NCBI GenBank assembly: GCA_029262055.1
Contig: JAJDAD010000114.1
Span: 1-64,000 of the forward strand
Direction: 5' to 3'
From: Candidatus Zhuqueibacterota bacterium
GTDB taxonomy: Bacteria; Zhuqueibacterota; Zhuqueibacteria; Oceanimicrobiales; Oceanimicrobiaceae
Length of the DNA: 64,000 nucleotides
Under the pieces are notes generated by a model. The model saw only the letters and a program-made list of their open reading frames with translations. It ran no database searches and was not told the DNA's origin. A program made the translations under genes and the position numbers. This document shows, piece after piece, positions 4,651-37,784 of the stretch (position 1 is the stretch's first letter; every line of letters begins with the position of its first letter).

Positions 4651-6456
4651 TTAAAGTTCTGCAATAGCGCTGGTGCGGCCCTCGTTTTCCTTCTTCAGAA
4701 ACTCTAACAAAGGCTGGTAGTACTCCAGCATCGCCCTTACGCTCAGGTCCTCCCCGGTCTTTTCGCGCAGGACTTCGCGCCAGTCCCGGCTGGCTCCCGG
4801 GCGCATGATGCTCTTGAGAAAATCACCCACCTCTTTGTTGCCATAGTAGTTGCAGTTTCTCGGATCCTGTTTCAAGATTTTTCGGGCGATGTGGTCATGA
4901 ATCTGGAATTTCAGGATGCAGGAAATGGCATAATCATAGTACTGGGCCGGGTCATTGTTGATGTGGGTTTTGCTGGCAGCATCACAGTACTCTTCTCCCC
5001 GTGGACCAGGAGGAACGATGCCCTGATATTTTTCTACGTACTCCCACCACCGCTGGTTGAATTTGTCTTTCGGCAGATTTTCCTCATAAAGATCATGCTC
5101 GAAGTGAGACATCGTGCCGGCGGAAAAAGGAATGAAAACAACAGAGCCGCTAGAAAGTGCGTCGTTGAGCAGCCACTGAATTTCATCGACTTCTGCATCT
5201 TCCTGCATCAAACCGAGCTGCTGGAGATACGGACGCTGCGACGACGCAATCGCCATCAAGTCGCCGATGCCCTCATGATAGCCGCGATTCGCACCCCGGC
5301 GCAACAACAAGGGTACGTCCGGATTTGTGTATTCAATGTAATAGTAAATGTGTCCGAGTTCGTGGTGAGATGTGCGGAACCAGCGGTCGTTCGGCACCAC
5401 GCTCATCAACGAACGATAGTCCTGGTCGTAGTCCAGATGCCAGGCGGAGGCATGGTTGTTCTTTTTGCGTTCGGTGCCTTCGGGCACGGGATACAAATCT
5501 GACCGCTCCCAAAAATTTTGGTTCAGTGCATCGAAGCCGAGACTGACGTAAAAATCTTCAGACGTCTTTACAGTCCACTCCGCCGACTTGCCTGTGTACA
5601 AACCATCCAGATCCACTGCATCGATGATGCCCGGCCAGTTTTGTCCCCAGCGATTCGGGAGCCAATGCGCCGGCAGCTTATCCGGGACAGGTTGGTTGTA
5701 GCGCTGCGCCAACTCATAACGCGCCCACGTGTGCAGCTCGGAATATAACGGTCGCAATTCCTCCAAAAAGCCGTCCATCAGTTGCATCATTTCCGCAACC
5801 GACATGCCGTAATCGGCTACCTCTAGCTCAAAAAAGGAACTGTAGCCCATCTCGCGTGCCGCTTCGTTGCGCAGGCGCTGCAGGTTTTCAAGGCCATCCT
5901 TCAGGGTTTTGCCTACTTCTTTACTCGATTCCCAGGCAGCCTGGCGCTCGCGGACATCGCTGGACTCGACCAACACCTGGTCGATTTCGTTGGTGCTCAC
6001 AACTTTCGCCTTACCGCGCTGGTCGCGAATCACAAAATCAAATCCGAACAGCCGGCTGTTTTGTTCGGTGTTGGCCTGAATCAGTTCATCGACCGTTTCA
6101 GGAATGGTGCCCGGCTGGTGTGCGGCCCGGCGTATTACTTTCCCCAACTGGCGCTTCTGCGAATCGGTGAGCCTGTCCTCATGCTCCAGGAGTGCTCTGG
6201 CTTTTTCAATCACAGCTTTACTGCCGACAAATACCGCGAGTGCTTTATCATTAACGACACTTAAGCTGTCGTGCTCCGGCTTTATATCAGTATTGGCTAG
6301 CCAGCTTGCTTTGTCGGAGTCATACGCCAGTTGCTGAAATTCCTCTGAATAAGATTGCAGAAACGCAGTTGCCTCCGATCGGGCCGGGTCCTCGCTGCAA
6401 CCCGCCAGCAGGAGAGCGACAACAGCAATGCTCAGTATTATATTGTTTGAGTTCAT
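4651..6456 (-). CDS. Peptidase family M2 (ACE-like dipeptidyl carboxypeptidase), lipoprotein
   Basis: Zinc carboxydipeptidase resembling angiotensin-converting enzyme; bacterial members trim dipeptides from peptide C-termini in the envelope. The chosen ATG at 6456 has a strong ACGGAGGT Shine-Dalgarno and opens a lipoprotein signal ending LLAGC; upstream codons in the same frame lack these marks. Zinc site HHELGHIYYY near residue 365, the third zinc ligand in YHEGIGDL, and RRGANRGYHEG are all as in M2. About 601 residues, full family length for a single-domain enzyme. Transcribed away from the exported winged-helix protein at 6655. Confidence 0.9.
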   Translation of the reverse strand: MNSNNIILSIAVVALLLAGCSEDPARSEATAFLQSYSEEFQQLAYDSDKASWLANTDIKPEHDSLSVVNDKALAVFVGSKAVIEKARALLEHEDRLTDSQKRQLGKVIRRAAHQPGTIPETVDELIQANTEQNSRLFGFDFVIRDQRGKAKVVSTNEIDQVLVESSDVRERQAAWESSKEVGKTLKDGLENLQRLRNEAAREMGYSSFFELEVADYGMSVAEMMQLMDGFLEELRPLYSELHTWARYELAQRYNQPVPDKLPAHWLPNRWGQNWPGIIDAVDLDGLYTGKSAEWTVKTSEDFYVSLGFDALNQNFWERSDLYPVPEGTERKKNNHASAWHLDYDQDYRSLMSVVPNDRWFRTSHHELGHIYYYIEYTNPDVPLLLRRGANRGYHEGIGDLMAIASSQRPYLQQLGLMQEDAEVDEIQWLLNDALSSGSVVFIPFSAGTMSHFEHDLYEENLPKDKFNQRWWEYVEKYQGIVPPGPRGEEYCDAASKTHINNDPAQYYDYAISCILKFQIHDHIARKILKQDPRNCNYYGNKEVGDFLKSIMRPGASRDWREVLREKTGEDLSVRAMLEYYQPLLEFLKKENEGRTSAIAEL

Positions 6457-6654
6457 TTGTTGAACCTCCGTAGGGGCTGGTAAGGAAGACTGTCGTTCAT
6501 TGAAAATGCCTACTAACTTACAACAGCCTGGACAACAATCAAGCCCAAAAGTCAGCCAGTTTGCCATGCTAAGGTGCCGCCAGATCAACTGGCCCCGGAA
6601 AATGCAGGAACACATTTCCACCATTCCGTGTTGAATACAAGAGACGGAGCGCAT

Positions 6655-7569
6655 ATGCGGCATCACAACTGGCTCGAATCCGGTATGGAGATTAATTTGC
6701 TCAAGAAGACTTCCTTCCAAATCATTATCCCGACGCTCGTTCAGCTTCTTCTGTTCGCACCGTCTTTCTCTCAGACTGATAATGGGACCAACACCACAGC
6801 CGCAAAAAGTCCTGACAAGGTGAAAGACATTCTCACCGGCAATACGGCTGAGGATCGGCAATACGAGCTCAGAAAGAAGAAATTTCTCGATCAAACGGTG
6901 AGCGACATCACGGATTCTACCATGGCCTCCGGCCTTATTTTCGAAATGAGCACGAACCGTGGAATGCCGTTTTTGCTGGATAGCGAGGGTCTGAAAGGTT
7001 TTCACCCCGGCTCAAACGATCCGATTGGCGACGAGCTCCGACGGCGACAAAACGACATCCCACCGACCGTGTCGCTCAATGACGCGATCCGAAATCTGGT
7101 GCAGAGCCTCAGAAAGGATAAACCAACACCGAAGGACAGCACCCTGCCTGTGCCAACCGACAATGAAATAGACGTGTTGAAGGTGCTTTGGGTGGAAGGC
7201 GGGGCTACCGCAAGCGATATCTACGCGAAACTGGATACTTCGACGGCCATCTTTGCCGAAGAGCTACAGGAGGTGTTGAAAACTATGGTAGATCGCGGCT
7301 TTGTGGATCGCAAACAAATCTCGCCGGCACACGAGTTCAACCTGTTCGGCATCGCCCAAATCGAAATCAGTGCAAAGAACCGCAAGAACAAAGTTTACCT
7401 GTACTGGCCCATCGTAACCAAGCAAGCACTCTTCACCTACCTGGATGCCAAAAGGTACCTTGCGCTGGTTTCGGCACAAAGCTCCACCGACTACGATATT
7501 AAGAACAACCGCTACGCCAGCAACTATCAAAAATACCTGCAAAACAAACTACATAGAATGTTCGAATAG
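6655..7569 (+). CDS. Exported protein with a BlaI/MecI-like winged-helix domain, function unknown
   Basis: About 304 residues. A basic start, the hydrophobic IIIPTLVQLLLFAPSFS and a Q after it look like a signal peptide. The middle is polar and variable. Near the end, from PTDNEIDVLKVLWVEGGATA to about MVDRGFVDR, it follows the helix-turn-helix pattern of BlaI/MecI penicillinase repressors (LWxxG..TA.DI...LxxMxxRG). A DNA-binding-type domain on an apparently exported protein is unusual; it may serve for protein contacts. GGAG lies 5 bases before ATG 6655; ATG 6685 is an alternative that starts nearer the signal core. It ends 3 bases from the convergent reductase gene. Confidence 0.6.
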   Translation: MRHHNWLESGMEINLLKKTSFQIIIPTLVQLLLFAPSFSQTDNGTNTTAAKSPDKVKDILTGNTAEDRQYELRKKKFLDQTVSDITDSTMASGLIFEMSTNRGMPFLLDSEGLKGFHPGSNDPIGDELRRRQNDIPPTVSLNDAIRNLVQSLRKDKPTPKDSTLPVPTDNEIDVLKVLWVEGGATASDIYAKLDTSTAIFAEELQEVLKTMVDRGFVDRKQISPAHEFNLFGIAQIEISAKNRKNKVYLYWPIVTKQALFTYLDAKRYLALVSAQSSTDYDIKNNRYASNYQKYLQNKLHRMFE

Positions 7570-7572
7570 CGC

Positions 7573-8553
7573 TTAGAGCCAGCCCTGAGCTGAGTACCAT
7601 TCCGCCGTTGCAGCAATTCCTTCCTGCAGAGAGTGTTTTGCGCTAAATCCCAGCTCCTCCTCCGCTCGCCTTGCACTGCACACCCAGTGTTTTTCCTTCA
7701 ACTCTTTGTACTTATCCAGGTTGATGATGGAGGGCGTTCCGCTGATTCGCGATACCAGGTCAGAGGCAAGCGCCGCCAGAAAGACCGCGAACAGAGGCAT
7801 GTTGAGACGCACGGTCTTTGCCCCAAGTGTTGCGGCGATGGTCTGCCCGAGTTCATCCCAGGTGTAGGGCCGGTCGTCGCACAAATAGTACGTCCGTCCA
7901 ATCGCTTCCGGTTTGGTAGCTGCCAGAAGTATTCCCTCGACTAAATCGTGGACAAAAACAAAGCTTGCTGTGCGTGGACCGCCTCCCAAAACGGGGCGCA
8001 GTCCTTTTTGGGCGTACTTGAAATAGGTCAAGACGTCAGAGTCACGTGGCCCGTAAACCGCGGGTGGCCTAACAAGCGTGATCGGGAGTCTATCCGAGAA
8101 GCCGTTTGTCACTTCCTCAGCGCGCAGTTTGCTGCGGCCGTAGTCGGAAACCGGCGCGGGAACGTCCTCTTCGCTAATGGGTTTGCCGTCAGGACTTGGC
8201 CCGGCGCCAGCCAGGCTGGACACCAGCACAAAACGCTGCAAGCGCGGACTCGAAGCAACCACGGCGTTGAGCAGATTGCGGGTGCCTTGCACGTTCACTA
8301 GGTCAAAATCCTCACGCCGGGCCGCCTTGGTCAGGCCGGCCAGATGATAAACATAGTCGAAATCTCCAGCGTCCAGATTGAGCTTTTTGTCAGACAAGTC
8401 ACCAGCGATGGTCGTGAAATCAAGTCCATCGAGCCAGGGGTTCGACTGCGCTTTGTGCCGCAACAAGCAATGGACCTGACAGCCCTGCTCAAGCAGCCTC
8501 TCCACCAGGAAACTGCCGATGAAGCCACGGGCCCCAGTTACGAGAACTTTCAT
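7573..8553 (-). CDS. cerR: Extended SDR NAD(P)-dependent epimerase/reductase, candidate ceramide reductase CerR
   Basis: Cytoplasmic Rossmann-fold enzyme of 326 residues: VTGARGFIG (5-13) nucleotide-binding loop, VSSLAG, and catalytic Tyr138-x3-Lys142 in DYGRSK, followed by RPPAVYGP. Alone it would be called a generic NAD-dependent epimerase/dehydratase. The neighbours sharpen this: it is divergent from a serine-palmitoyltransferase-like gene with a GNAT-type acyltransferase after it, the three families that make ceramide in Caulobacter (Spt, bCerS, CerR). In that pathway this family reduces the 3-oxo group. The specific role is inferred from context, the fold from sequence. Confidence 0.75.
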   Translation of the reverse strand: MKVLVTGARGFIGSFLVERLLEQGCQVHCLLRHKAQSNPWLDGLDFTTIAGDLSDKKLNLDAGDFDYVYHLAGLTKAARREDFDLVNVQGTRNLLNAVVASSPRLQRFVLVSSLAGAGPSPDGKPISEEDVPAPVSDYGRSKLRAEEVTNGFSDRLPITLVRPPAVYGPRDSDVLTYFKYAQKGLRPVLGGGPRTASFVFVHDLVEGILLAATKPEAIGRTYYLCDDRPYTWDELGQTIAATLGAKTVRLNMPLFAVFLAALASDLVSRISGTPSIINLDKYKELKEKHWVCSARRAEEELGFSAKHSLQEGIAATAEWYSAQGWL

Positions 8554-8653
8554 TTTTCACCAATCTAATTTGACAGATTATCTTGAACAGGGAGCTTAAC
8601 CAAATTGCCACAGAAAGTCAATTCGCCATTTTAAACCGCTGTAACTTTTGGCC

Positions 8654-8682
8654 TTGCATTCCTGCAGTGCTTTGACTATATT
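8654..8682 (+). promoter_or_regulatory. Candidate sigma-70-type promoter of spt
   Basis: TTGCAT (8654-8659), a 17-base spacer and TATATT (8677-8682) lie 43 bases before the spt start codon. The -10 box matches 5 of 6 positions, the -35 box is weak. The spacing is ideal; no other evidence. Confidence 0.4.
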
Positions 8683-8725
8683 TTTTGTTCTAAATCAAAC
8701 CACTCAATTGTAGGAGAACTGCATC

Positions 8726-9910
8726 TTGGCTGACGTATTCGACAAATGCTACAAATTCACCCGTGCAGATGACCTGAAAGAGCAGGGCTGGTACCCGTAC
8801 TTTAAGGCGATTCAGTCTGGCGCTGATTCCGAGGTCGTGATCGACGGCAAACAGTTGATCATGATAGGTTCCAACAACTACCTGGGCCTGACCCAGGATC
8901 CCAGAATTAAACAGGCCGCCCAAAAGGCGATCAGTGAGTTCGGTTCAGGCTGCACCGGCTCCCGGTTCCTTAATGGCACTCTTTCTCTCCATGTCGAGCT
9001 CGAAGAAAAGCTGGCCGAATTCATGAACGCCGAAAGCGCGCTGGTGTTTTCCACCGGGTTTCAAACCAATCTTGGCACCATGGCCACTATCGCGGGTAAG
9101 GAAGATATCATTTACACAGATCGCAACAACCACGCTTCCATGGTAGACGGCTGCCGGCTGTCTTTCGCCAGACTTGTAAAATTCAAGCACAACAATATGC
9201 GCGATCTGGAGCGGCTCCTGGCCGCAAGCAACCCAAACAAAGGTAAACTCATTGCCGTTGACGGTGTTTTTAGTATGGAAGGCAACTTGATCGATCTGCC
9301 CAACCTGGTCAAGACAGCCAAAAAACATGACGCAAGAATCATGGTCGACGACGCCCACTCTGTCGGTGTCTTTGGCGAAAATGGCCGTGGAACGGCTGAG
9401 CACTTTCATCTCGAAGACGATGTCGACATCGTCATGGGAACCTTCAGCAAGTCGTTTGCCTCGCTCGGCGGTTATATCGTGGCTAACGCCAAGGTGATCG
9501 ACTACTTGAAGCATCATGCACGCGCGCTGATTTTTTCCGCCAGCATTCCGCCGGCCAATGCCGCATCCGTGCTGGCCGCGCTGGACATTCTGAAAAAAGA
9601 ACCGGAAAGACGCGAACGGTTGTGGCGCAATGTCAGGAAAATGAAGAGCGCGTTTGATGAAATGGGGTTTGATACCTGCGGTAGCGAAAGCCCGGTAATC
9701 CCCATCGTCGTGGGTGAAGACGTCCACACGTTTATGTTCTGGAAGAAACTGTTTGAAAATGGTGTGTTTACCAACCCGGCGATCCCGCCCGCGGTACCGC
9801 AAGGCCGCTCACTTATCAGGACCAGTTATATGGCAAACCATACCGAAGAGGAGCTTGACATCGTCCTCGACGTCTTCGAGAGACTCGGCAGGGAATTCGG
9901 CCTGATATAA
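8726..9910 (+). CDS. spt: Serine palmitoyltransferase-like alpha-oxoamine synthase
   Basis: PLP enzyme of 394 residues that condenses an amino acid with an acyl thioester and releases CO2. Family marks: GCTGSRFLNGT, His136 (NNHASMVDG) stacking on PLP, DDAHSVGVFGENGRG (Asp208, His211) and Schiff-base Lys242 in GTFSKSFASLGG. This last motif and the N-terminal YPYFKAI region look more like bacterial serine palmitoyltransferases than BioF or Kbl, and no biotin or threonine genes are near. The start is TTG with AGGAG 9 bases upstream; no ATG fits. A terminator follows the stop. It probably makes 3-oxosphinganine for the reductase and acyltransferase beside it. Confidence 0.85.
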   Translation: MADVFDKCYKFTRADDLKEQGWYPYFKAIQSGADSEVVIDGKQLIMIGSNNYLGLTQDPRIKQAAQKAISEFGSGCTGSRFLNGTLSLHVELEEKLAEFMNAESALVFSTGFQTNLGTMATIAGKEDIIYTDRNNHASMVDGCRLSFARLVKFKHNNMRDLERLLAASNPNKGKLIAVDGVFSMEGNLIDLPNLVKTAKKHDARIMVDDAHSVGVFGENGRGTAEHFHLEDDVDIVMGTFSKSFASLGGYIVANAKVIDYLKHHARALIFSASIPPANAASVLAALDILKKEPERRERLWRNVRKMKSAFDEMGFDTCGSESPVIPIVVGEDVHTFMFWKKLFENGVFTNPAIPPAVPQGRSLIRTSYMANHTEEELDIVLDVFERLGREFGLI

Positions 9911-9942
9911 ACATCCATTGTGGATAGCAGATTTTATAGAGC

Positions 9943-9971
9943 AGAGGTCGCCATACAGCGGCCTCTTTTTT
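9943..9971 (+). terminator. Intrinsic terminator after spt
   Basis: A 9-bp stem (9943-9951 with 9958-9966, one G-U pair) with a 6-base loop is followed by a run of T to 9971. It lies 33 bases after the spt stop and just before the acyltransferase gene, so the latter depends on read-through or its own promoter. Confidence 0.75.
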
Positions 9972-9990
9972 GTTCGCATCAAACCGACCC

Positions 9991-11115
9991 ATGAACATGA
10001 GCGATATTCAAGTAGGTGCAGTCAAGTCCAGAAAGGACTTCAGGGCCTTTTTAAAGCTCCCCTGGAAGATCTATGCGGGTGACCAGCGTTGGGTACCACC
10101 CCTGCTCATGGATATGAAGACGATTTTGAGTCGAAAAAAGAATCCGTTTTTCGAGCATTCAGACGCAGAGCTGTTTCTGGCCAAACAGGGTGGAGAAGTT
10201 GTCGGTCGAATCGCCGGGATCATCAACAATCGGCACAACGAATTTCACCAGGAAAACATCGGATTCTTTGGTTTCTTCGAGTGCATTGATAACGCGAATG
10301 TGGCAAAGGCCTTGTTTGAAGCGGTGGCGAGCTGGACCGAGTCGAAAGGAACGAAAGGTCTGCGCGGACCCGCGAATCTGACCTCGAATGACACATTTGG
10401 CTTTCTTGCCGAAGGATTCGACGCTGCGCCGGTGATCATGATGCCGTACAACCCGCAGTACTACTTGTCACTCCTGGAAGCTTGCGGCTTTACAAAGGCG
10501 AAAGACCTCTATGCTTACGATTTTCATCGCGACACGCCAATCCCGGAGCGGTTCGTCAAGTTTGCCGAAAAGCAACTGCGTGACTCGAAGCTGACATTTC
10601 GCAAAATAGATTTGTCAGACTTTGACAATGAAGTCAAAACAGTTCGTAAAATTTACAATGATGCCTGGGTGCAAAACTGGGGCTTTGTCCCGATGACGGA
10701 AAAGGAGTTCGAACACCTAGCGAAGGATTTAAAACCGGCAGTAGACCCGGACATCGTCTATCTGGCCGAGGTCGATGGCGAGCCCGCCGGTTTCTCCTTA
10801 GCTCTGCCTGACTACAACGAAATCCTGAAGGACGTGAATGGCCGACTCTTCCCCTTCGGCATTTTCAAGCTTCTCCTGAGGAAGAAGAGCGTGAAACGCA
10901 TCCGCGTCATCACCCTCGGCGTTCGACAGAAATTTCAGAAAAAGAGAGGCCTGGCGCCGACTTTCTACTACGAGACCTATGAACGTGGTAAAAAGAAGGG
11001 CTACGAAGAAGCAGAGTTTTCCTGGATACTCGAAGACAATGTTCTGATGAATCGCGCGCTGGAGGGACTTGGGGCGCGGCTCTACAAGAAATACAGGGTC
11101 TACGAAAAGCTTTAG
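9991..11115 (+). CDS. bcerS: GNAT-fold acyltransferase, candidate bacterial ceramide synthase bCerS
   Basis: About 374 residues in two acyltransferase-like halves. Visible: WKIYAGDQRWVPPLL near the start, LRGPANLTSNDTFGFL, DAWVQNWGFVPMT and a C-terminal half with EAEFSWILEDNVLMNRALE. Proteins of this kind are usually labelled GNAT or hypothetical. In Caulobacter a GNAT-type protein beside spt N-acylates the long-chain base, which makes that role likely here. ATG 9991 (or 9997) is chosen because an upstream TTG lies inside the spt terminator; no clear Shine-Dalgarno. Its stop directly abuts the stop of the convergent zinc-ribbon gene. Confidence 0.7.
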   Translation: MNMSDIQVGAVKSRKDFRAFLKLPWKIYAGDQRWVPPLLMDMKTILSRKKNPFFEHSDAELFLAKQGGEVVGRIAGIINNRHNEFHQENIGFFGFFECIDNANVAKALFEAVASWTESKGTKGLRGPANLTSNDTFGFLAEGFDAAPVIMMPYNPQYYLSLLEACGFTKAKDLYAYDFHRDTPIPERFVKFAEKQLRDSKLTFRKIDLSDFDNEVKTVRKIYNDAWVQNWGFVPMTEKEFEHLAKDLKPAVDPDIVYLAEVDGEPAGFSLALPDYNEILKDVNGRLFPFGIFKLLLRKKSVKRIRVITLGVRQKFQKKRGLAPTFYYETYERGKKKGYEEAEFSWILEDNVLMNRALEGLGARLYKKYRVYEKL

Positions 11116-11451
11116 CTACTCATACCAATAGAGAATTCTACCGCACCCCTCACATGAGATCACTTCTCTATCGGTTCGTCCGCGTGTGATAAGCTGTGTC
11201 GGAATTCGCATAAAACAGCCGAGACACGTATCGTCCTTTACCGGCACGATCGACCGCATATAACGCTTCCTCAGCTTTTCATAATTGAAGACAATGGGTT
11301 TAGCCAGCTTTTGCGCCAGGTCTTCTCTCGCCTTGATCAGCTTCTCCCTGCCCGCAACGTCGAATCCGATTTCCTTTACATCTTCGATGTCTTTGATCAT
11401 GATATCCAGATCCTGCAACGCGACCAACAGCTCAAGTTCCTTACTCAGCAT
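11116..11451 (-). CDS. Short coiled-coil protein with C4 zinc ribbon
   Basis: 111 residues: a charged helical N-terminus (ELELLVALQDLDIMIKDIE), a middle with YEKLRKRYMRSIVPVKD, then a C4 zinc ribbon with CLGC (about 82-85) and CEGC (about 103-106). This ending is typical of the zf-RING_7/YbgI-neighbour zinc-ribbon family, whose usual members are about 240 residues with a long coiled coil; here most of the coiled coil is absent. AGGAGACAGCA precedes the ATG, which lies inside the end of the PtsN-like gene (11-base overlap). Same operon; role unknown. Confidence 0.7.
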   Translation of the reverse strand: MLSKELELLVALQDLDIMIKDIEDVKEIGFDVAGREKLIKAREDLAQKLAKPIVFNYEKLRKRYMRSIVPVKDDTCLGCFMRIPTQLITRGRTDREVISCEGCGRILYWYE

Positions 11452-11914
11452 TGCTGTCTCCTGTTATAGCAGCCACGAATTCTTCGTACGTCTCAGCTTT
11501 GAGAAGTTTGTTGCGGTTTTTCGTTTCGTTGAGGAATTCAACTAGCTTTCCTAGCACAGGAAGATACTTGTTGTCATGCTCTTGCGGTGGTGCCAGTACG
11601 ACAAAAACCAGGTGAACAGGCTTCTTGTCGATAGCATCAAATTCGATGCCCTTTTCGGACTTGCCAAAAGCGATGTGCACATCCATGGTGGCGGTGGTGC
11701 GCCCGTGTGGTATGGCCACGCCTTTTCCGATTCCGGTGCTGCCCAGCTTTTCACGCTGCTGCAGCATCTCCAAGACGATCTCGCCGTTACGAATACATTT
11801 GCTATCTACAAAAAGTGCCGCCATCTGTTCCAAACACTTTGCCTTGCTTTTGTGCTTTAGCTTTGCAAGGAAAAGGTCCGGACTGAAGTAGTTTACAAGA
11901 TCGCTTGTTTGCAT
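11441..11914 (-). CDS. ptsN: PTS EIIA-type (PtsN/fructose IIA) phosphocarrier protein
   Basis: 157 residues of the IIA(Fru/Ntr) fold. The phosphorylatable His lies in GVAIPHGRTT, with the usual KGIEFDAIDKKPVHLVFVVLAP following. No EIIB, EIIC, HPr or EI gene is near, so a regulatory role of the PtsN kind is more likely than sugar uptake. The start at 11914 has a strong GGGGAGGTA Shine-Dalgarno; a longer start would lack one. It lies between manC and the zinc-ribbon gene on the same strand. Confidence 0.85.
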   Translation of the reverse strand: MQTSDLVNYFSPDLFLAKLKHKSKAKCLEQMAALFVDSKCIRNGEIVLEMLQQREKLGSTGIGKGVAIPHGRTTATMDVHIAFGKSEKGIEFDAIDKKPVHLVFVVLAPPQEHDNKYLPVLGKLVEFLNETKNRNKLLKAETYEEFVAAITGDSNAE

Positions 11915-11942
11915 TACCTCCCCGTTGTTTAGGTTTTCTTTA

Positions 11943-12203
11943 CTACTCCACACCACTTGCACTGTCAATTATCTCCCGCAAGGCCGGTGTGATGTACAGG
12001 TTTTCCAGATCCTGGTTATTCTTGAGTTCTTTTGCAATCAACAGGATCTTTTGCTCGGTCCCCAATGCACGGTTCAACACCAACTCTTTTCTCTCGTGGT
12101 AACGATATATCCCGCCGACAAAATCTCCTTTCTCGTATCGTACGTCGATGGATAGCTCAGACAATAGTTTTTCAAGGCTCTCGAGTTTGTCTATATCATC
12201 CAT
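11943..12203 (-). CDS. Conserved small hypothetical protein (86 aa)
   Basis: Acidic-basic 86-residue protein beginning MDDIDKLESLEKLLSELSID and containing VRYEKGDFVGGIYRYHERKE and ITPALREIID. No known catalytic motif or membrane segment. It ends 28 bases before the PtsN-like start and follows manC, all on the minus strand, so it is probably cotranscribed. No clear Shine-Dalgarno. The continuous frame, the composition and the tight packing support a real gene; function not recognised. Confidence 0.65.
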   Translation of the reverse strand: MDDIDKLESLEKLLSELSIDVRYEKGDFVGGIYRYHERKELVLNRALGTEQKILLIAKELKNNQDLENLYITPALREIIDSASGVE

Positions 12204-12283
12204 ATCATTTTGTCATGCGTATCCGGCAGAGCCGAACACGAAGATGATCTAAGAGTGTCAATTAAACAAGCTCCGAAGGCATC

Positions 12284-13354
12284 TTACAGCAAGTCCTTCT
12301 TTTTCTTCCTTCTCGCCAGGTCAACTATGCTTTTGACATTTTGCGCCTGGTCGCGCGAGCAGACCAGAACTGCATCGCCTGTGTCGACCACAATGACATT
12401 ATCAAGACCAACCAGCGCCACACTCCGGTCTTCGGCATCGACGAAACAGCCACGACTGTCTGTCACCAAATGGTCGCCGACAAGTACGTTGTCGTTTTCA
12501 TCCTTTTCATGCAGTTTGTAAATCTGATCCCAACTGCCCAAATCGTTCCACCCGAATTTTGCCTTCAACACCTTCACGTTCTTCGCCGCTTCCATGACGC
12601 CGTAGTCGATGGAGACGCTCCGGATTTGGCGGTAGACACGATTTTTAGTGGACTCCTCCTTTGCCGTGCCCAGGACGGCTTTTATCTCCATCAAGCCATC
12701 GTGAACCTGCGGCAGGTGTTCCTCGATTTCGGCAAGGATTGTCTTTATTTTCCAAATGAAGATGCCACTATTCCAGAGAAAGTCCCCACTTTGCAGAAAA
12801 CGTTGCGCAGTCGCCAGATTAGGTTTCTCAGCAAATGTTTTTACTGTATATAAGCTAAGACCGTCAATGCAGTCGACCTCTGTCTCGGATTGGATATAGC
12901 CATAACCGGTAGATGGGTAATCCGGCTCCACTCCGATGGTCACAATACAATCAGTCTCAGCCGCGACTTTTCGTGCAACCTGGAGTGTCTTGTGAAACAA
13001 CTTGCGCCCATCGACAATGTGGTCGGCGGGCAAGACCACCATGACCGCATCCGGGTCGATGCGTTGCATGTACAAAGCAGCAAGACCGATGCAAGGGGCC
13101 GTGTTTTTCCCCATTGGCTCGGCAATGACGTTGCCGGCAGGAACGCCCGGTAATTGTGCGCGGATTTTTTCTAATTGACTGTCAGTTGAAACAACAAAAG
13201 TTTGCTCGGGACTGATGAGAGGGTTTAAGCGACTTACAGTATTTTGAATCAACGTCTTCTTGCCTAACACACGCAGCAAATGCTTGGGATGGTCCTGCCG
13301 GCTCTTCGGCCAAAACCTGGTGCCCAAGCCACCAGCCATTATCAGTGCAAGCAT
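12284..13354 (-). CDS. manC: Mannose-1-phosphate guanylyltransferase
   Basis: Makes GDP-mannose from mannose-1-phosphate and GTP for glycan synthesis. 356 residues of the nucleotidyltransferase type without the isomerase domain. Visible: MAGGLGTRFWPKSRQDHPKH (7-26) signature, VIAEPMGKNTAPCIGLAAL, VLPADHIV with the metal Asp, FAEKPNLATA, FLWNSGIFIWK and KFGWNDLGSWDQIY near the end. All key motifs are intact. In this neighbourhood (GT2, OPX, CpsD-like) it probably feeds mannosyl donor to a surface polysaccharide. Confidence 0.93.
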   Translation of the reverse strand: MLALIMAGGLGTRFWPKSRQDHPKHLLRVLGKKTLIQNTVSRLNPLISPEQTFVVSTDSQLEKIRAQLPGVPAGNVIAEPMGKNTAPCIGLAALYMQRIDPDAVMVVLPADHIVDGRKLFHKTLQVARKVAAETDCIVTIGVEPDYPSTGYGYIQSETEVDCIDGLSLYTVKTFAEKPNLATAQRFLQSGDFLWNSGIFIWKIKTILAEIEEHLPQVHDGLMEIKAVLGTAKEESTKNRVYRQIRSVSIDYGVMEAAKNVKVLKAKFGWNDLGSWDQIYKLHEKDENDNVLVGDHLVTDSRGCFVDAEDRSVALVGLDNVIVVDTGDAVLVCSRDQAQNVKSIVDLARRKKKKDLL

Positions 13355-13387
13355 TTAATCAACCCAGAAAGGAAGGTGTTGGTGCAT

Positions 13388-13435
13388 AAAAAAAACCATT
13401 GTCCGGTGTAAAAAGATGTCTCTACGAACAATGGT
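13388..13435 (-). terminator. Intrinsic terminator after the flavoprotein gene
   Basis: On the minus strand an 11-bp stem (13425-13435 with 13395-13405, one U-G pair) with a 19-base loop is followed by a T run (complement of 13388-13394). It lies about 105 bases after the stop at 13541 and before manC. Confidence 0.75.
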
Positions 13436-13540
13436 GAGCCTGAATGATGTGCTGGACAAAACGCGAAAACTCGCTAACCTTGTGAAGAATAATTGACCTC
13501 CATATAACGAACGTGAATTTATGGCTTTAACAGCAGAAAA

Positions 13541-14740
13541 TCAAGAACTTTTAAACAACGACCTAAGCTTGGAGAAGAAAACCGCGCTTACAAGTCCGGG
13601 ACTGCTGTTAACCATCCCGAGGATTCTCTTCGGACTGAAATCGCCCTTGAGCAATGGTGGTAAATAACTCGGGTCAAGTTGACGCAATTGCCGGATCTTC
13701 TCGTCCCACATTTCATCGCTATATTGTGAGATCCTCTCATTGATCTCGAGTCCCACCTTAAAGGTCACTGCATATTTCTTCTGCCATTCCTGTTCATAGC
13801 GAACAAGATATTCGCGGTCATGGCGTTTACTCGCGATGGCCCCGGCCGCAGTCCTACCGGCCATACGGCCGATATCAATTGCAAAGCGAATCCCTTCGCC
13901 CAAAAGCGCCGAAATGAGGCCGCCGGCATCTCCGGTTACCATAAAACCGTCGCTCACGGTTTGTTCCAGACAGCCGCTGCTGGGGATGATGCCCACGTGA
14001 TACTCGAGGGAACTGAAGGCGCCGAGCTGCGGCCGTAAGTTGTCACACACTCTGTCAAGATATTCTCTCGGGTCTCCCATGGCGTCGGGGCGAATGATCC
14101 CGACACCGGTCCGAACACGCCTTTGCCCGTGTGGTAAAACCCAGGCGTAACCGGCCGGTGCAACCTCACTGCCGAACAGAAATGCCGCGCGCTCTTCCGG
14201 CCAATCTGGCGCATGGAGGTCGTACTCCGCCCCCACTCCTATTCGTTGAAAGCCGGCAGTCAATCCCAGGGCACGGGCCAAGACTGAGTTTGCGCCGCTG
14301 GCATCTATTACGATTTTGGAGTGGCAATCGAAGCGTCGTCCATTTCGACGGACTTTTACGCCATCGACTTTGCCGTTCCTCATGCAGGGTGCGCCGACAC
14401 TGCTGTTGACAAAAATCCCGGCTCCATGTGACGCGGCTAATTCACCGAGGTATTGATAGAGTCCACGCACATCCAGAACGCAACTGGCCGGGGTATCATA
14501 ACGGAAGGTCGCTGTTTCGGTGGGCGCTACAAAATGGCCCTCGAGAATCGGGTGCATAAAACGCTCGGGGATATCCAGGGCGCGTAATTCATCGATCCAG
14601 CTTCCGCCGCTGGTGTGGATCGGGTAGCCAATTTCCTTGCTTTTTTCAAAGAGAGCGACCCTGGCGCCACCTCGCGCCGCAGCGTAAGCGGCCGAAAGAC
14701 CGGCAGGGCCGCCACCGACGACGGCAACATCTACTTCCAT
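13541..14740 (-). CDS. Geranylgeranyl-reductase-family FAD-dependent oxidoreductase
   Basis: 399-residue flavoprotein. N-terminal FAD-binding VAVVGGGPAGLSAAYAAARG with a downstream ExS/K pattern (FEKSKEIGYPIHTSGG), VIDASGANS in the middle and DGFMVTGDAGGLISALLGEG, the usual second FAD contact. This matches geranylgeranyl/digeranylgeranylglycerophospholipid reductase relatives that saturate polyprenyl chains; electron donor and substrate cannot be read from the sequence. The start MEVDVAVVGGG at 14740 fits the family. A further in-frame start at 14818 would add an atypical extension. Terminator downstream. Confidence 0.8.
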   Translation of the reverse strand: MEVDVAVVGGGPAGLSAAYAAARGGARVALFEKSKEIGYPIHTSGGSWIDELRALDIPERFMHPILEGHFVAPTETATFRYDTPASCVLDVRGLYQYLGELAASHGAGIFVNSSVGAPCMRNGKVDGVKVRRNGRRFDCHSKIVIDASGANSVLARALGLTAGFQRIGVGAEYDLHAPDWPEERAAFLFGSEVAPAGYAWVLPHGQRRVRTGVGIIRPDAMGDPREYLDRVCDNLRPQLGAFSSLEYHVGIIPSSGCLEQTVSDGFMVTGDAGGLISALLGEGIRFAIDIGRMAGRTAAGAIASKRHDREYLVRYEQEWQKKYAVTFKVGLEINERISQYSDEMWDEKIRQLRQLDPSYLPPLLKGDFSPKRILGMVNSSPGLVSAVFFSKLRSLFKSS

Positions 14741-14830
14741 TATGCAGATCCCAAAAAAAAAAGCTATCTCAGGCTTCGGATATTCAATCCACCCAGCAAC
14801 GATTTCTCTTGTGAGCAATCGCCGCAGAGT

Positions 14831-33032: not shown

Positions 33033-36000
33033 ATGGTTACCAAGAGAGTCGCTACCCAGCAAGTGCTTGTTGTCAATGGCGATGTTGCCGAGCTACAGGC
33101 CACAGCAAAAAGCCTGGAATCTGAGCAGATACAAACAGTATGTTGCACGAGTGCCACAGAGGCGCTAACTGCCGCTGACCAACGCTCACTCGATGTGGCA
33201 ATTGTTGGCTCCCAGTTACCGGATGGCGACGCATTTACTCTTGTCAAAAGTCTCAAGCTCAAAAATCCTCAACTCAAAACCATCGTGCGGGTAGCATCCC
33301 CATCCTCCGAGTCCTTGCCAGACATGCACCAGGGTACTTTCGCTTTTGTGCAGCAAGTTGACGGGCCCGAAGAGCTACTGTCCAGCGTACAGGCGTTTGA
33401 TGTGCACATGACAGCAGACAACTCCGCCGTTGAAAATAAGTTGCGCGATCAAGTCAAACGACTCACTAAGGCCAACCGGAAACTGCGCACTCAAATCGCT
33501 ACAAGAAAACAGGTCGAAACAAAACTGCGTAGCGATGAGGAGCTGTACCGGTTTCTGGCGGAGAACTTGCAGGTCGCAATCTGGGAAGTTGACCTCGATG
33601 GCAAGCTTGCTTCAATAAACCGGGCAGGCTTGGCGATGCTCGGCGCTGATTCGGAAGAAGGGATCATCGGCAAATCTTACCTGGATTTCGTGCCGGCCGA
33701 AGAGCGGAACAATATAAGTCACCTGCTCCAAAATGCTGCAGGCGGATCAGTGGTGACCTTTCAGCTCCGCACCGGAAATGCTTGTCACTTTGATGCATCA
33801 TTTGTGCCCGTTCCTGACGCTGCCGGCCATACCCTCCGCATCGTGGGCACTGCCCACGATATCACCGAACACCGTCTTGCGGAATTCGCATCGAAAGAAA
33901 GCGCAGTCAACTATCGCTCGCTGGTCGAGTCGACCAATGCCGTGCTGTGGAAACTGAACCTTGCAACCGGACAGTTTACCTATATTGGCAAGCAGGTGGA
34001 GACGTTGCTTGGCTACAAAGCCGACACTTGGATTGATATGGACACGCGGCTGTCTCGCATTCATCCCGAAGACCGGGAGAATGCGGTTGTTCACAGCGCT
34101 GAATCGACTAGGAATGGACGGGATCATGATTTTGAGTACCGTGCCCTCGCAAAAGATGGCAGCATCGTCTGGATACGCGATATCGTTACCGTACTCGCGC
34201 GGCAAGACGGCCCAAAGGAATTGATCGGTTTCATGTTCGATGTGACGGAGCAAAAAAGGGTCGACGAAGCGCTGCAGGAAAGCGAGAAAAAATGCCGGGC
34301 CAACAAATTCTTCCTCAAAGAATCACAGAGAGTCTCCCGTATCGGTTCTTATGATTATGACATCAACTCAGGCACTTGGCGCAGTTCCGATGTTCTTGAT
34401 GAGATTTTCGGGATCCAAAAGGACAACGGCAAAGACGTCGCTGCCTGGCTAAAAGTAGTTCACCCGGACATGCGCCAAGAAATGCAGAACTATCTAATGA
34501 AAGATGTTCTGATTGACCACCAGCGTTTCGACCGGGAGTATCGGATCATCCGGGCGAGCGATCACGAGGTCAGGTACGTACATGGACTCGGGGAGCTGGA
34601 TTTTGACGATGATGGCAAACCCACGGGATTGATAGGCACTATTCAGGACATTACCGAGCGCAAACTGGCAGAGGAAAAACTTCTATTTACACAGTTTGCC
34701 GTCGACCATAACGCTGATCCTACCTACTGCGTCAGAGCGGATGGCAAGATTTGCTATGTAAACGAGGCGGCCTGCCGAACTCTCGGATACTCGCGGGAAG
34801 AGCTTCAATCGATGGTCGTTCCGGATATTTCCACCGATCTTTCCCAAGACGCCTGGTCCGGGCGCTGGCAGAAAATCAGGGACGGGGAGGCAATGACTCT
34901 GGAGACACACCATAAAACAAAGTCCGGTCAGGCTTTGCCGGTTGAAATCCATACCAGCTTTATCCAGTACCAAAATGAGGAATATGCCTGGGCCTATGCG
35001 CGCGACATTACCGAACGTAAACGCGCTGAGGTAGCGCTTACAGAAAGCGAGCAGAGATACCGCCGTCTGTTCGAGGACTCGCCGATCTCGCTATGGGAAG
35101 AAGATTTTACACAAGTCCAGGCATATCTCGCTATGCTCAAGGCCAGGGGTGTTACAGACTATCGCGCGTATTTTGCCGAGAATCCAGATGAGGTGGCAGC
35201 TTGCGCACAAAAAGTCCGAATTCTGGATGTTAACAAAGCCACGTTGACCTTGCATCACGCTGAGAACAAGGAGAGATTATTAGGCGATCTGACTACGACT
35301 TTTACTGAAAAAACTCTCGAAGCCTTTCGGGAAGAGCTGATAACCCTGGCGGAAGGACGGACGCGATTTGAAGCCGAGGCCGAAGTAAAAACCTTGACCG
35401 GCGAAAACAGAAATGTTCACCTGGATTTCTCTGTGACACAAGCGGTGAGAGACGGAAGTGATCGGATGCTCGCATTGGTGGCTATCGCCGATATCACCGA
35501 GCGCAAACATACTGAAGCGAGGCTACGTTTTACGCAGTTTGCAGTCGACCACAATGCCGATCCTACATACTGGGTCAGCGCAGATGGAAAGATCTGCTAT
35601 GTAAACGACGCGGCGTGCCGAACTCTTGGATACTCGCGGGAAGAGCTTCAGTCTATGACTGTTCCTCAAATCGATCCTGATTTTCCCGTGGAAGCATGGC
35701 CGGGGCACTGGCAGGAAATGAAAGATGCGGGATCATTGACTTTTGAGGCCCACCACAAGACAAAGTCCGGCCAGGTTATACCGGTTGAAATCCATACCAG
35801 TTTTATTACGTATCAAAACGAGGAATATATCTGGGCCTTCGTCCACGACATTACCGAGCGCAAGCAGGCGGAAGAAAGAATCACGCGTTTTAGCCGTATC
35901 TTCGAAGACTCACTAAATGAGATATATTTGTTCGATGCAGATGCATTGAAATTTACTCAGGTGAATGGCGCCGCTCAGCATAATCTGGGCTATACGATGG

Positions 36001-37784
36001 AAGAATTACATGAATTAACACCACTTGATTTAAAACCTGAAGTTACGAATGAATCGTTTGCAAAATTGGTTGCGCCCTTACGCAATGGTGAAAAAGACAA
36101 GATCGTCTTCGAGACTGTTCACAAACGAAAAGATCAATCACTTTACAATGTGGAAGTTCACTTGCAGATTTTGCACTTTGAACACGAGACGCTATTCGCC
36201 GCGATTATTTCCGATATCACTGAACGTAAGCAGGCGCAAGAGCAACTTAACAAACTGTCCGTGGCGCTTGAACAAATCCCGGCAGCGGTCATTATCACGG
36301 ACATCTCTGGCACCATCGAATATGTGAATCCACGCTTCACGCAAATTAACGGCTATAGAGCCGAAGAGGTTATCGGGAAAAGTCCGCGTATGTTGGATCC
36401 AGATGGTTGCTCAGGTAACAATCACAAACAAGTCTGGGATGTAATAACTTCCGGCAAGACCTGGCGAGGCGAATTTCACAACCAGAAGAAAAACGGTAGA
36501 CAATACTGTGTGTCGGCATCGATATCACCTGTGCGGAACACGAATGACGAGATCACGCACTTTCTGGTGGTCGAGGAAGACATCACCGCCAAGAAATTGG
36601 TTGCTAAAGAAAAGGCAAACCTCACAGAACAACTGTGGCACGCACAGAAGATGGAAACCGTCGGGACGCTGGCGGGCGGCATTGCGCATGATTTCAACAA
36701 CATCCTGCAGGCGATTCAGGGTTACGTAGACATGTGTATGGATGAGCTGCCACCGGACGGTCCCGTCTACCGGGATTTGAACGAAGTCATGAAGGCCACG
36801 GGCAGAGCTGCCAAGATGGTCAAGCAACTGCTGGCCTTCAGCCGCAATGACTACCAGGAACGCGAACGTGTGGAGATGCCCATATTGGTCAATGAAACCC
36901 TGCATCTTTTGCGCGGCTCCCTGCCTTCAACCATAGACATTCGCCCCGACATCGTCAAGAAATGTAACCCAATTATGGCCAATCCCGGCCAGATTCACCA
37001 GGTCATAATGAACTTGTGTACAAATGCTTACCAATCAATGGGCCTTGATGGCGGCACGCTCGCCGTAAAATTGCGCATGGCGAAGATCGGTGCCGCCATG
37101 CGACGGAGGCACCCACAGTTGGTTGCAGATGCTTACCTGGAGTTATCGGTTACGGACACGGGAAAAGGGATGGACAGCAGGACACTCGACCGGATATTTG
37201 AACCGTTCTTTACAACCAAGCAGGTTGGAGAGGGAACCGGTCTGGGGCTTTCAGTCGTGCACGGAATTGTCCTTGCGCACGACGGCCATGTTGTGGTCAA
37301 AAGTGAGCCGGAAACGGGGACATCGATCCTGGTATACTTGCCGGTGGTAGAGCCGTCGGATCGTGAGACCGCTTGCACTACTGAGGTCGCCGTTGAATAC
37401 TCCGGACGAATCCTTTATGTTGATGATGAGGCATCGGTGGCCACCGTCGTGACCAGGTTGCTCACCAAACTTGGCTACGATGTCGTTGCCAGCGATACGG
37501 GCCACGACGCCCTTACTTTGTTCCGGAAAGACCCCGGTGCTTTCGACCTTGTGCTGACCGACCAAACCATGCCCGGCATGACCGGAATCAAACTCGCCGA
37601 GAAACTCCTCAAGATCCGGCCTGCAATACCAATCATCCTCATGTCCGGGTTTGGCCGCATAGGCACGCACGATGATGCAAAGAAGCTGGGAATCCGGGAA
37701 TTTGTGATGAAACCGGTCATGGCCGACGAGTTGAGTGCGGCCATCAACCGCGTACTGCAAACGGATCACTCTAACAGGACTTAA
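33033..37784 (+). CDS. Hybrid histidine kinase with pseudo-receiver, eight PAS modules and receiver
   Basis: 1583 residues, apparently cytoplasmic (no membrane segment). Order: N-terminal receiver-like domain (about 5-125) in which the acceptor Asp is Gly (VAIVGSQLPDG) and the Lys is lost; a coiled coil (130-170); eight PAS/PAC modules (about 170-285, 288-410, 425-545, 550-665, 670-828, 829-945, 948-1070, 1073-1195), most ending in DITERK-like PAC; HisKA with GGIAHDFNNIL (His about 1219); HATPase_c with NLCTNAYQ, DTGKGM and GTGLGLS; C-terminal receiver (about 1455-1580, Asp in LTDQTMPG). PAS 4 and 6 are near copies. A single-domain regulator follows 4 bases later. Confidence 0.93.
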   Translation: MVTKRVATQQVLVVNGDVAELQATAKSLESEQIQTVCCTSATEALTAADQRSLDVAIVGSQLPDGDAFTLVKSLKLKNPQLKTIVRVASPSSESLPDMHQGTFAFVQQVDGPEELLSSVQAFDVHMTADNSAVENKLRDQVKRLTKANRKLRTQIATRKQVETKLRSDEELYRFLAENLQVAIWEVDLDGKLASINRAGLAMLGADSEEGIIGKSYLDFVPAEERNNISHLLQNAAGGSVVTFQLRTGNACHFDASFVPVPDAAGHTLRIVGTAHDITEHRLAEFASKESAVNYRSLVESTNAVLWKLNLATGQFTYIGKQVETLLGYKADTWIDMDTRLSRIHPEDRENAVVHSAESTRNGRDHDFEYRALAKDGSIVWIRDIVTVLARQDGPKELIGFMFDVTEQKRVDEALQESEKKCRANKFFLKESQRVSRIGSYDYDINSGTWRSSDVLDEIFGIQKDNGKDVAAWLKVVHPDMRQEMQNYLMKDVLIDHQRFDREYRIIRASDHEVRYVHGLGELDFDDDGKPTGLIGTIQDITERKLAEEKLLFTQFAVDHNADPTYCVRADGKICYVNEAACRTLGYSREELQSMVVPDISTDLSQDAWSGRWQKIRDGEAMTLETHHKTKSGQALPVEIHTSFIQYQNEEYAWAYARDITERKRAEVALTESEQRYRRLFEDSPISLWEEDFTQVQAYLAMLKARGVTDYRAYFAENPDEVAACAQKVRILDVNKATLTLHHAENKERLLGDLTTTFTEKTLEAFREELITLAEGRTRFEAEAEVKTLTGENRNVHLDFSVTQAVRDGSDRMLALVAIADITERKHTEARLRFTQFAVDHNADPTYWVSADGKICYVNDAACRTLGYSREELQSMTVPQIDPDFPVEAWPGHWQEMKDAGSLTFEAHHKTKSGQVIPVEIHTSFITYQNEEYIWAFVHDITERKQAEERITRFSRIFEDSLNEIYLFDADALKFTQVNGAAQHNLGYTMEELHELTPLDLKPEVTNESFAKLVAPLRNGEKDKIVFETVHKRKDQSLYNVEVHLQILHFEHETLFAAIISDITERKQAQEQLNKLSVALEQIPAAVIITDISGTIEYVNPRFTQINGYRAEEVIGKSPRMLDPDGCSGNNHKQVWDVITSGKTWRGEFHNQKKNGRQYCVSASISPVRNTNDEITHFLVVEEDITAKKLVAKEKANLTEQLWHAQKMETVGTLAGGIAHDFNNILQAIQGYVDMCMDELPPDGPVYRDLNEVMKATGRAAKMVKQLLAFSRNDYQERERVEMPILVNETLHLLRGSLPSTIDIRPDIVKKCNPIMANPGQIHQVIMNLCTNAYQSMGLDGGTLAVKLRMAKIGAAMRRRHPQLVADAYLELSVTDTGKGMDSRTLDRIFEPFFTTKQVGEGTGLGLSVVHGIVLAHDGHVVVKSEPETGTSILVYLPVVEPSDRETACTTEVAVEYSGRILYVDDEASVATVVTRLLTKLGYDVVASDTGHDALTLFRKDPGAFDLVLTDQTMPGMTGIKLAEKLLKIRPAIPIILMSGFGRIGTHDDAKKLGIREFVMKPVMADELSAAINRVLQTDHSNRT

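Follow-up and report, generated by a model that had tools for sequence, protein, structure and literature searches.

The stretch of DNA analysed here (the window, 64,000 nucleotides) lies on contig 18 of a genome of candidate division KSB1 that is 5.7 Mb in size and 97% complete. Between positions 7573 and 11115 it carries three adjacent genes, encoding a short-chain dehydrogenase/reductase (SDR), a predicted serine palmitoyltransferase (SPT) and an acyltransferase, which together probably constitute a de novo pathway for the (dihydro)ceramide backbone, a reading whose probability we put at roughly 87%. The features of the locus are as follows.

7573..8553, minus strand: SDR gene, 326 amino acids; CerR-type extended SDR, predicted keto-ceramide or 3-keto-sphinganine reductase
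8554..8725, no strand: intergenic region from which the SDR and SPT genes diverge; presumed, from direct reading of the sequence, to hold promoters
8726..9910, plus strand: SPT gene, 394 amino acids; Lys242 binds pyridoxal phosphate (PLP); predicted from profile, structure homologue, active site and tree
9943..9966, plus strand: intrinsic-terminator-like hairpin, a perfect 9-bp stem with a T-run, between the SPT and acyltransferase genes
9970..11115, plus strand: gene for a predicted tandem-GNAT N-acyltransferase of the YghO / CC_1154 (bCerS) family, 381 amino acids; ATG 9991 or 9997 is the likelier start

The three open reading frames (ORFs) lie where a preliminary description of this DNA had placed them, and its residue numbering (Tyr138-x3-Lys142 in the SDR, Lys242 within GTFSKSF in the SPT) is correct. 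The ORF coordinates also bear out the arrangement it gave, with the SDR gene divergent from the SPT gene across a gap of 172 bp and the acyltransferase gene downstream of the SPT gene, in the same direction, after a gap of 62 bp (from match ends to listed starts). An AGGAG-like ribosome site can be read about 8 bases 5' of the TTG start of the SPT gene, and no sigma-70 consensus was found in 8554-8725, an absence that says little for the KSB1 phylum. Because the listed start of the acyltransferase, TTG 9970, falls inside the T-run of the hairpin, translation probably begins at one of the two in-frame ATGs at 9991 and 9997. The nearest named relatives of the locus come from KSB1 metagenome-assembled genomes (MAGs; loci L086-L089), with SPT identities of 80, 77, 77 and 73%, respectively.

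Family membership of the three proteins

Among NCBIfam models, the SPT is matched best by NF047600 (Bacteroidota-group SPT), with 551.8 bits, ahead of the models for other SPT groups, Kbl and BioF by at least 120 bits. The best match among solved structures is the homologous SPT of Sphingobacterium multivorum (PDB 8guh, 3a2b; 443.8 bits), which aligns without gaps over residues 6-384. Ten of the eleven active-site positions examined are identical in the two proteins (N50, S79, H136, S183, D208, H211, T239, S241, K242 and R365 in the window SPT), and the hallmarks of alpha-oxoamine synthases, namely the PLP-binding K242, the stacking H136 and D208/H211, are kept. R365, counted here as an active-site arginine, is likewise common to both enzymes. 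The Sphingobacterium positions compared were those named in PMC10196870 (Asn52, Ser81, His138, Ser185, Asp210, His213, Thr241, Ser243, Lys244), and the sole difference among the eleven, Met271 of that enzyme replaced by Ile269 in the window SPT, concerns a residue described in the same article as a main-chain contact. A tree of 78 rows gathers the KSB1 SPTs into a single clade (31 rows, SH-aLRT 97) with Rhodobacterial SPTs, Kbl and BioF all outside it, and the window SPT groups with SPTs, apart from Kbl and BioF, at separating forks of 86 and 94; this and the other trees were built by a quick method, with identical rows dropped and L089 left out of two of them. These comparisons identify the SPT-like gene as one predicted to encode an SPT of the non-Rhodobacterial type.

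The acyltransferase (ACYLTRANSFERASE) gives a weak Pfam match to GNAT (26.4 bits), and no NCBIfam model matches it. Both tblastn and blastp link it to YghO: it is 38% identical to YghO of E. coli BL21 and 37% to the Roseomonas homologue, and all seven YghO-family references from ceramide clusters cover at least 95% of the query at 33-43% identity. Of the 22 columns that are invariant in a set of 26 acyltransferase sequences, 21 are also kept in BL21 YghO. The BL21 locus has the order yghO, fatty acyl-AMP ligase, epimerase, acyl carrier protein (ACP) and spt, a five-gene cluster that was matched to PMC9386255 by gene order and names, not by old locus tags; CC_1154 and yghO ECD_02850 are listed there as one gene, 'aca', of the ceramide set. 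On sequence, the acyltransferase belongs to the YghO family, equated in the literature with CC_1154 (bCerS/Aca), and it is the only gene of this family in the host genome. Many KSB1 genomes hold several YghO paralogues besides, and in two Myxococcaceae loci (L096, 9615-13001; L097, 3501-6840) the SPT gene is followed by two YghO-family acyltransferase genes flanking an SDR gene. A scan of viral contigs found no relative of the acyltransferase. Because no PDB sequence matched the protein at E-values up to 1, its fold was taken from an AlphaFold2 model (mean predicted local distance difference test score, pLDDT, 90). The predicted fold is a tandem GNAT, the model matching 7q3a with a Z of 24.3 and a root-mean-square deviation of 3.7 over 304 residues; the best fold matches are to tandem GNATs acting on other substrates, N-myristoyltransferases come lower (Z about 16), and no ceramide synthase is among the PDB fold matches.

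The third protein is an extended SDR (PF01370, 120.7 bits). When the host genome was queried with Roseomonas CerR, the window SDR came first with 93.4 bits, the next match scoring 49.6. Its motifs comprise GxxGxxG at residue 7, Arg32, Ser112/113, Tyr138 and Lys142, and Gly7, Gly10, Gly13, Arg32, Ser112, Tyr138 and Lys142 are invariant in all 49 SDRs from such clusters. An arginine at position 32 is expected to contact the phosphate of NADPH; Asp occupies position 31 in 10 of 14 SDR paralogues of the host's own genome.

Distribution and linkage of the trio

Homologues were searched for in 82 KSB1 genomes, 49 of which are good. An SPT of at least 58% identity is present in 68 of the 82, among them 44 of the good ones, and the acyltransferase family in 75 of the 82. 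The good genomes without SPT are G028, counted as such although its acyltransferase runs into a contig end, G066, and G068, G069 and G071 (96-98% complete), of which the last three lack the acyltransferase as well and have a best SDR that is 36-37% identical. The family of these last three (f12) also includes G072 and G073, which retain all three genes, and we read the joint absence of SPT and acyltransferase as one co-loss in that family.

Among the 68 SPT-bearing genomes, the acyltransferase gene lies directly downstream of the SPT gene in at least 38, the SDR gene is adjacent and divergent in at least 39, and both arrangements are found together in at least 21. Both contig ends and the choice of rows make these counts lower bounds; the rows retained were the best match per genome (SPT ≥58%, acyltransferase ≥43%, SDR ≥36% identity) after Kbl-like rows, the second SPT of G060 and weaker, mostly unlinked acyltransferases had been dropped, G053 being an empty placeholder row. 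The arrangement of the trio is not due to chance. The trio recurs in many phyla, often with the divergent layout of the window: an SDR / SPT / acyltransferase order of this kind is found in Zixibacteria RBG-1 and on a plasmid of Aureispira anguillae (NZ_AP026868, locus L043), where the annotation is generic and the identities to the window proteins are 44% (SPT), 38% (acyltransferase) and 35% (SDR); Rubrobacter and Streptomyces have the order SPT-GNAT-SDR. In a tally by eye of 44 named SPT loci, both partners occur within the DNA retrieved around the SPT gene in 25, one partner in 9 and neither in 10. Within KSB1, the trio is apparently near-universal and vertically inherited.

The preliminary description regarded sphingolipids as a trait known for only some bacterial lineages, a view made outdated by a Black Sea study that reports Spt-like genes from 38 phyla (PMC11334938); the MAGs carrying them belong to many phyla, and in some of them homologues of CerR and bCerS are linked to the Spt-like gene. 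The main text of that article does not mention KSB1, and a search of the open literature pairing 'KSB1' with 'sphingolipid' found no paper. As far as searched, this is a known kind of system that is new for the KSB1 phylum.

Predicted pathway and alternative readings

In the proposed pathway, the SPT would condense L-serine with a fatty acyl thioester to 3-keto-sphinganine via a PLP aldimine on Lys242, the tandem-GNAT enzyme of the YghO family would N-acylate the SPT product with a second fatty acyl group, and the SDR would reduce the 3-keto group with NADPH through Tyr138 and Lys142. The thioester is probably acyl-CoA, because this SPT subgroup is without dedicated AcpR/AasR. The sequences show family membership directly; from it we infer the reactions and the order in which they run, as well as the final head group. 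The host genome also contains two DAGK_cat genes, a lead towards a ceramide kinase from a family that is general.

That no acyl carrier gene stands beside the trio, as the preliminary description had noted, was confirmed by the lack of any PF00550 match on the contig. Searched in six frames, the whole genome has PF00550 matches at two places, both on other contigs: the housekeeping ACP on contig 106, and a second ACP-like gene that adjoins a PF01553 acyltransferase. No adenylate-forming ligase is among the neighbouring ORFs scanned, no separate search for AasR having been made at the locus or in the genome. The contrast with Caulobacter that was drawn from the missing ACP is true, but it is no peculiarity of the locus and fits the non-Rhodobacterial SPT subgroup. 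Dependence on AcpR/AasR has been described for Rhodobacteria, the SPTs of Bacteroidetes and delta-proteobacteria forming another subgroup (PMC9386255), and the absence of an acyl carrier gene is expected because only the Rhodobacterial subgroup is known to need AcpR/AasR. The accompanying statement that the three families suffice was too strong for Caulobacter itself, in which formation of 3-oxo-sphinganine also requires AcpR and AasR (PMC9386255).

Several observations weigh against the proposed pathway. The score of the SPT lies below the curated NF047600 cut-off of 640 bits, a value set for a model of one SPT group and no intrinsic feature of the enzyme. The SDR shares only about 29-31% identity with Rhodobacterial CerR, no more than the 31% it shares with the host's own HpnA-like SDR; in the SDR tree (for whose outgroup 19 own-genome loci were tried, four being left out for want of a protein and two duplicates dropped) the cluster SDRs and Rhodobacterial CerR fall in one clade without HpnA/OleD-like SDRs, but the branch that parts them from the host's other SDRs has a support of only 38, and because of this weak branch the orthology of the SDR with CerR is argued from linkage and from the CerR search of the host genome. 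In 7 of the 82 KSB1 genomes no member of the acyltransferase family is present, and its best copy is unlinked to SPT in several KSB1 families. No lipid or enzyme data for KSB1 bacteria were found in the literature. Finally, the product could in part be 1-deoxy-ceramide, because SPT also accepts Ala or Gly, at lower efficiency (PMC10196870). In favour of the ceramide and sphingolipid synthesis that the preliminary description proposed stand the profile and tree of the SPT, the sole YghO-family gene and the best CerR match, which together support it.

Of the alternatives, the one that fares best, while still unlikely, follows the proposal made for Caulobacter, with acylation first and the SDR acting as a CerR in the periplasm. 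It draws on localisation and oxidised-ceramide data from that organism, in which CerR is placed in the periplasm with the source of its reducing power then unknown, and on the distant kinship of the SDR with NDUFA9, which the same article describes for CerR (PMC11087976). Against it, an in-frame TGA lies two codons 5' of the SDR ATG and the dinucleotide motif begins at residue 7, so that there is no room for a signal peptide. The motif stands at most 12 residues from the first possible start in 38 of the 49 cluster SDRs; in the remaining 11 the open frame extends further, and in several of these an internal Met immediately precedes the motif. The invariant Arg32 is that expected of an NADPH-type enzyme. 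The periplasm, moreover, has no free NADH, according to PMC11087976 itself. Because a signal peptide is precluded and Arg32 is of the NADPH type, the window SDR is probably cytosolic and NADPH-using, which is the simpler reading, export by another route being possible. Reduction could therefore precede or follow acylation, and acylation first in the cytosol is possible.

Less probable still is a sphingolipid analogue in place of ceramide, either a sulfonolipid made from cysteate or a 1-deoxy-ceramide made from alanine. The cysteate fatty acyltransferase 28eh is homologous to the window SPT, and 1-deoxy- and sulfono-1-deoxy-ceramides dominate the upper euxinic Black Sea (PMC11334938), but 28eh scores 230 bits against 443.8 for the Sphingobacterium SPT, and the serine-contacting residues are those of the latter enzyme, leaving alanine use as a possible side reaction. 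Very improbable is a reading in which the alpha-oxoamine synthase would be a paralogue of BioF or Kbl and its neighbours unrelated: SPT, BioF and Kbl all belong to PF00155, the glycine C-acetyltransferase and BioF models match as well (398.9 and 404.0 bits), and the host's other close alpha-oxoamine synthase, the Kbl-like L003, is 42% identical to the window SPT, yet the SPT model is ahead by more than 120 bits, L003 is a separate gene whose product scores above the glycine C-acetyltransferase cut-off, both Kbls have Val in place of Ser79, E. coli Kbl and BioF have Gly in place of Ser241, and trio linkage across phyla speaks against unrelated neighbours. The BioF/Kbl, sulfonolipid and unrelated-epimerase readings were rejected on the SPT scores and residues and the CerR genome search; the closest relatives are not BioF/Kbl and an unrelated epimerase, the outcome that the preliminary description had named as contrary to its proposal, as seen from the SPT model and tree and from CerR finding the SDR first.

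Surroundings, known systems and biological meaning

The hairpin at 9943-9966 has a z of -3.25. A similar hairpin, with the core AGGTCG...CGRCCT, occurs in the gap of all six genomes of the host's family that were examined and is missing from most other KSB1 SPT-acyltransferase gaps, many of them short. It is not a common repeat, because a search of the host genome found a related core at just three other places. It may lower expression of the acyltransferase relative to the SPT.

Convergent with the SDR gene, 6574-7569 (plus strand) encodes a winged-helix (TrmB/BlaI-like) protein whose N-terminus, judged by eye, resembles a signal peptide; homologues of this protein adjoin the SDR in several KSB1 families. 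After the acyltransferase, 11116-14818 (minus strand) holds Zn-ribbon, EIIA, mannose-1-phosphate guanylyltransferase and geranylgeranyl-reductase-like genes, in an order kept in the host's own family, the first three also occurring in other KSB1 families. Elsewhere in the window are an angiotensin-converting-enzyme-like M2 peptidase (4651-7005, minus strand; PF01401, 358.9 bits) and a multi-PAS sensor kinase of 1583 amino acids with response-regulator domains (33033-37784, plus strand).

The spt, cerR and bcerS genes of Caulobacter crescentus (CC_1162, CC_1164, CC_1154) and their BL21 homologues represent the same three protein families as the KSB1 trio, a comparison made through Roseomonas, Sphingomonas and E. 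coli BL21 homologues, not Caulobacter's own proteins. Unlike those systems, the KSB1 cluster is without a dedicated ACP or acyl-ACP synthetase, has an SPT from another subgroup and a compact, divergent layout, and its SDR has no space for a signal peptide. Linkage of the three genes, as seen in the window, is reported to be absent from the Bacteroidota that make sphingolipids (PMC11334938).

A broader scenario, offered tentatively and with the odds somewhat against it, is that sphingolipids are ancestral in KSB1 membranes and are made by a wholly cytosolic, acyl-CoA-fed and NADPH-reduced three-enzyme route, the periplasmic step of Caulobacter being a special case or needing revision. A signal-less, NADPH-type reductase across most relatives bears on the dispute over whether acylation precedes reduction and in which compartment. 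Being compact and free of ACP and AasR genes, the trio also lends itself to heterologous expression. With this locus the largely uncultured phylum KSB1 joins the likely sphingolipid producers, an addition that bears on how sphingolipid biomarkers are read in anoxic and sediment settings.

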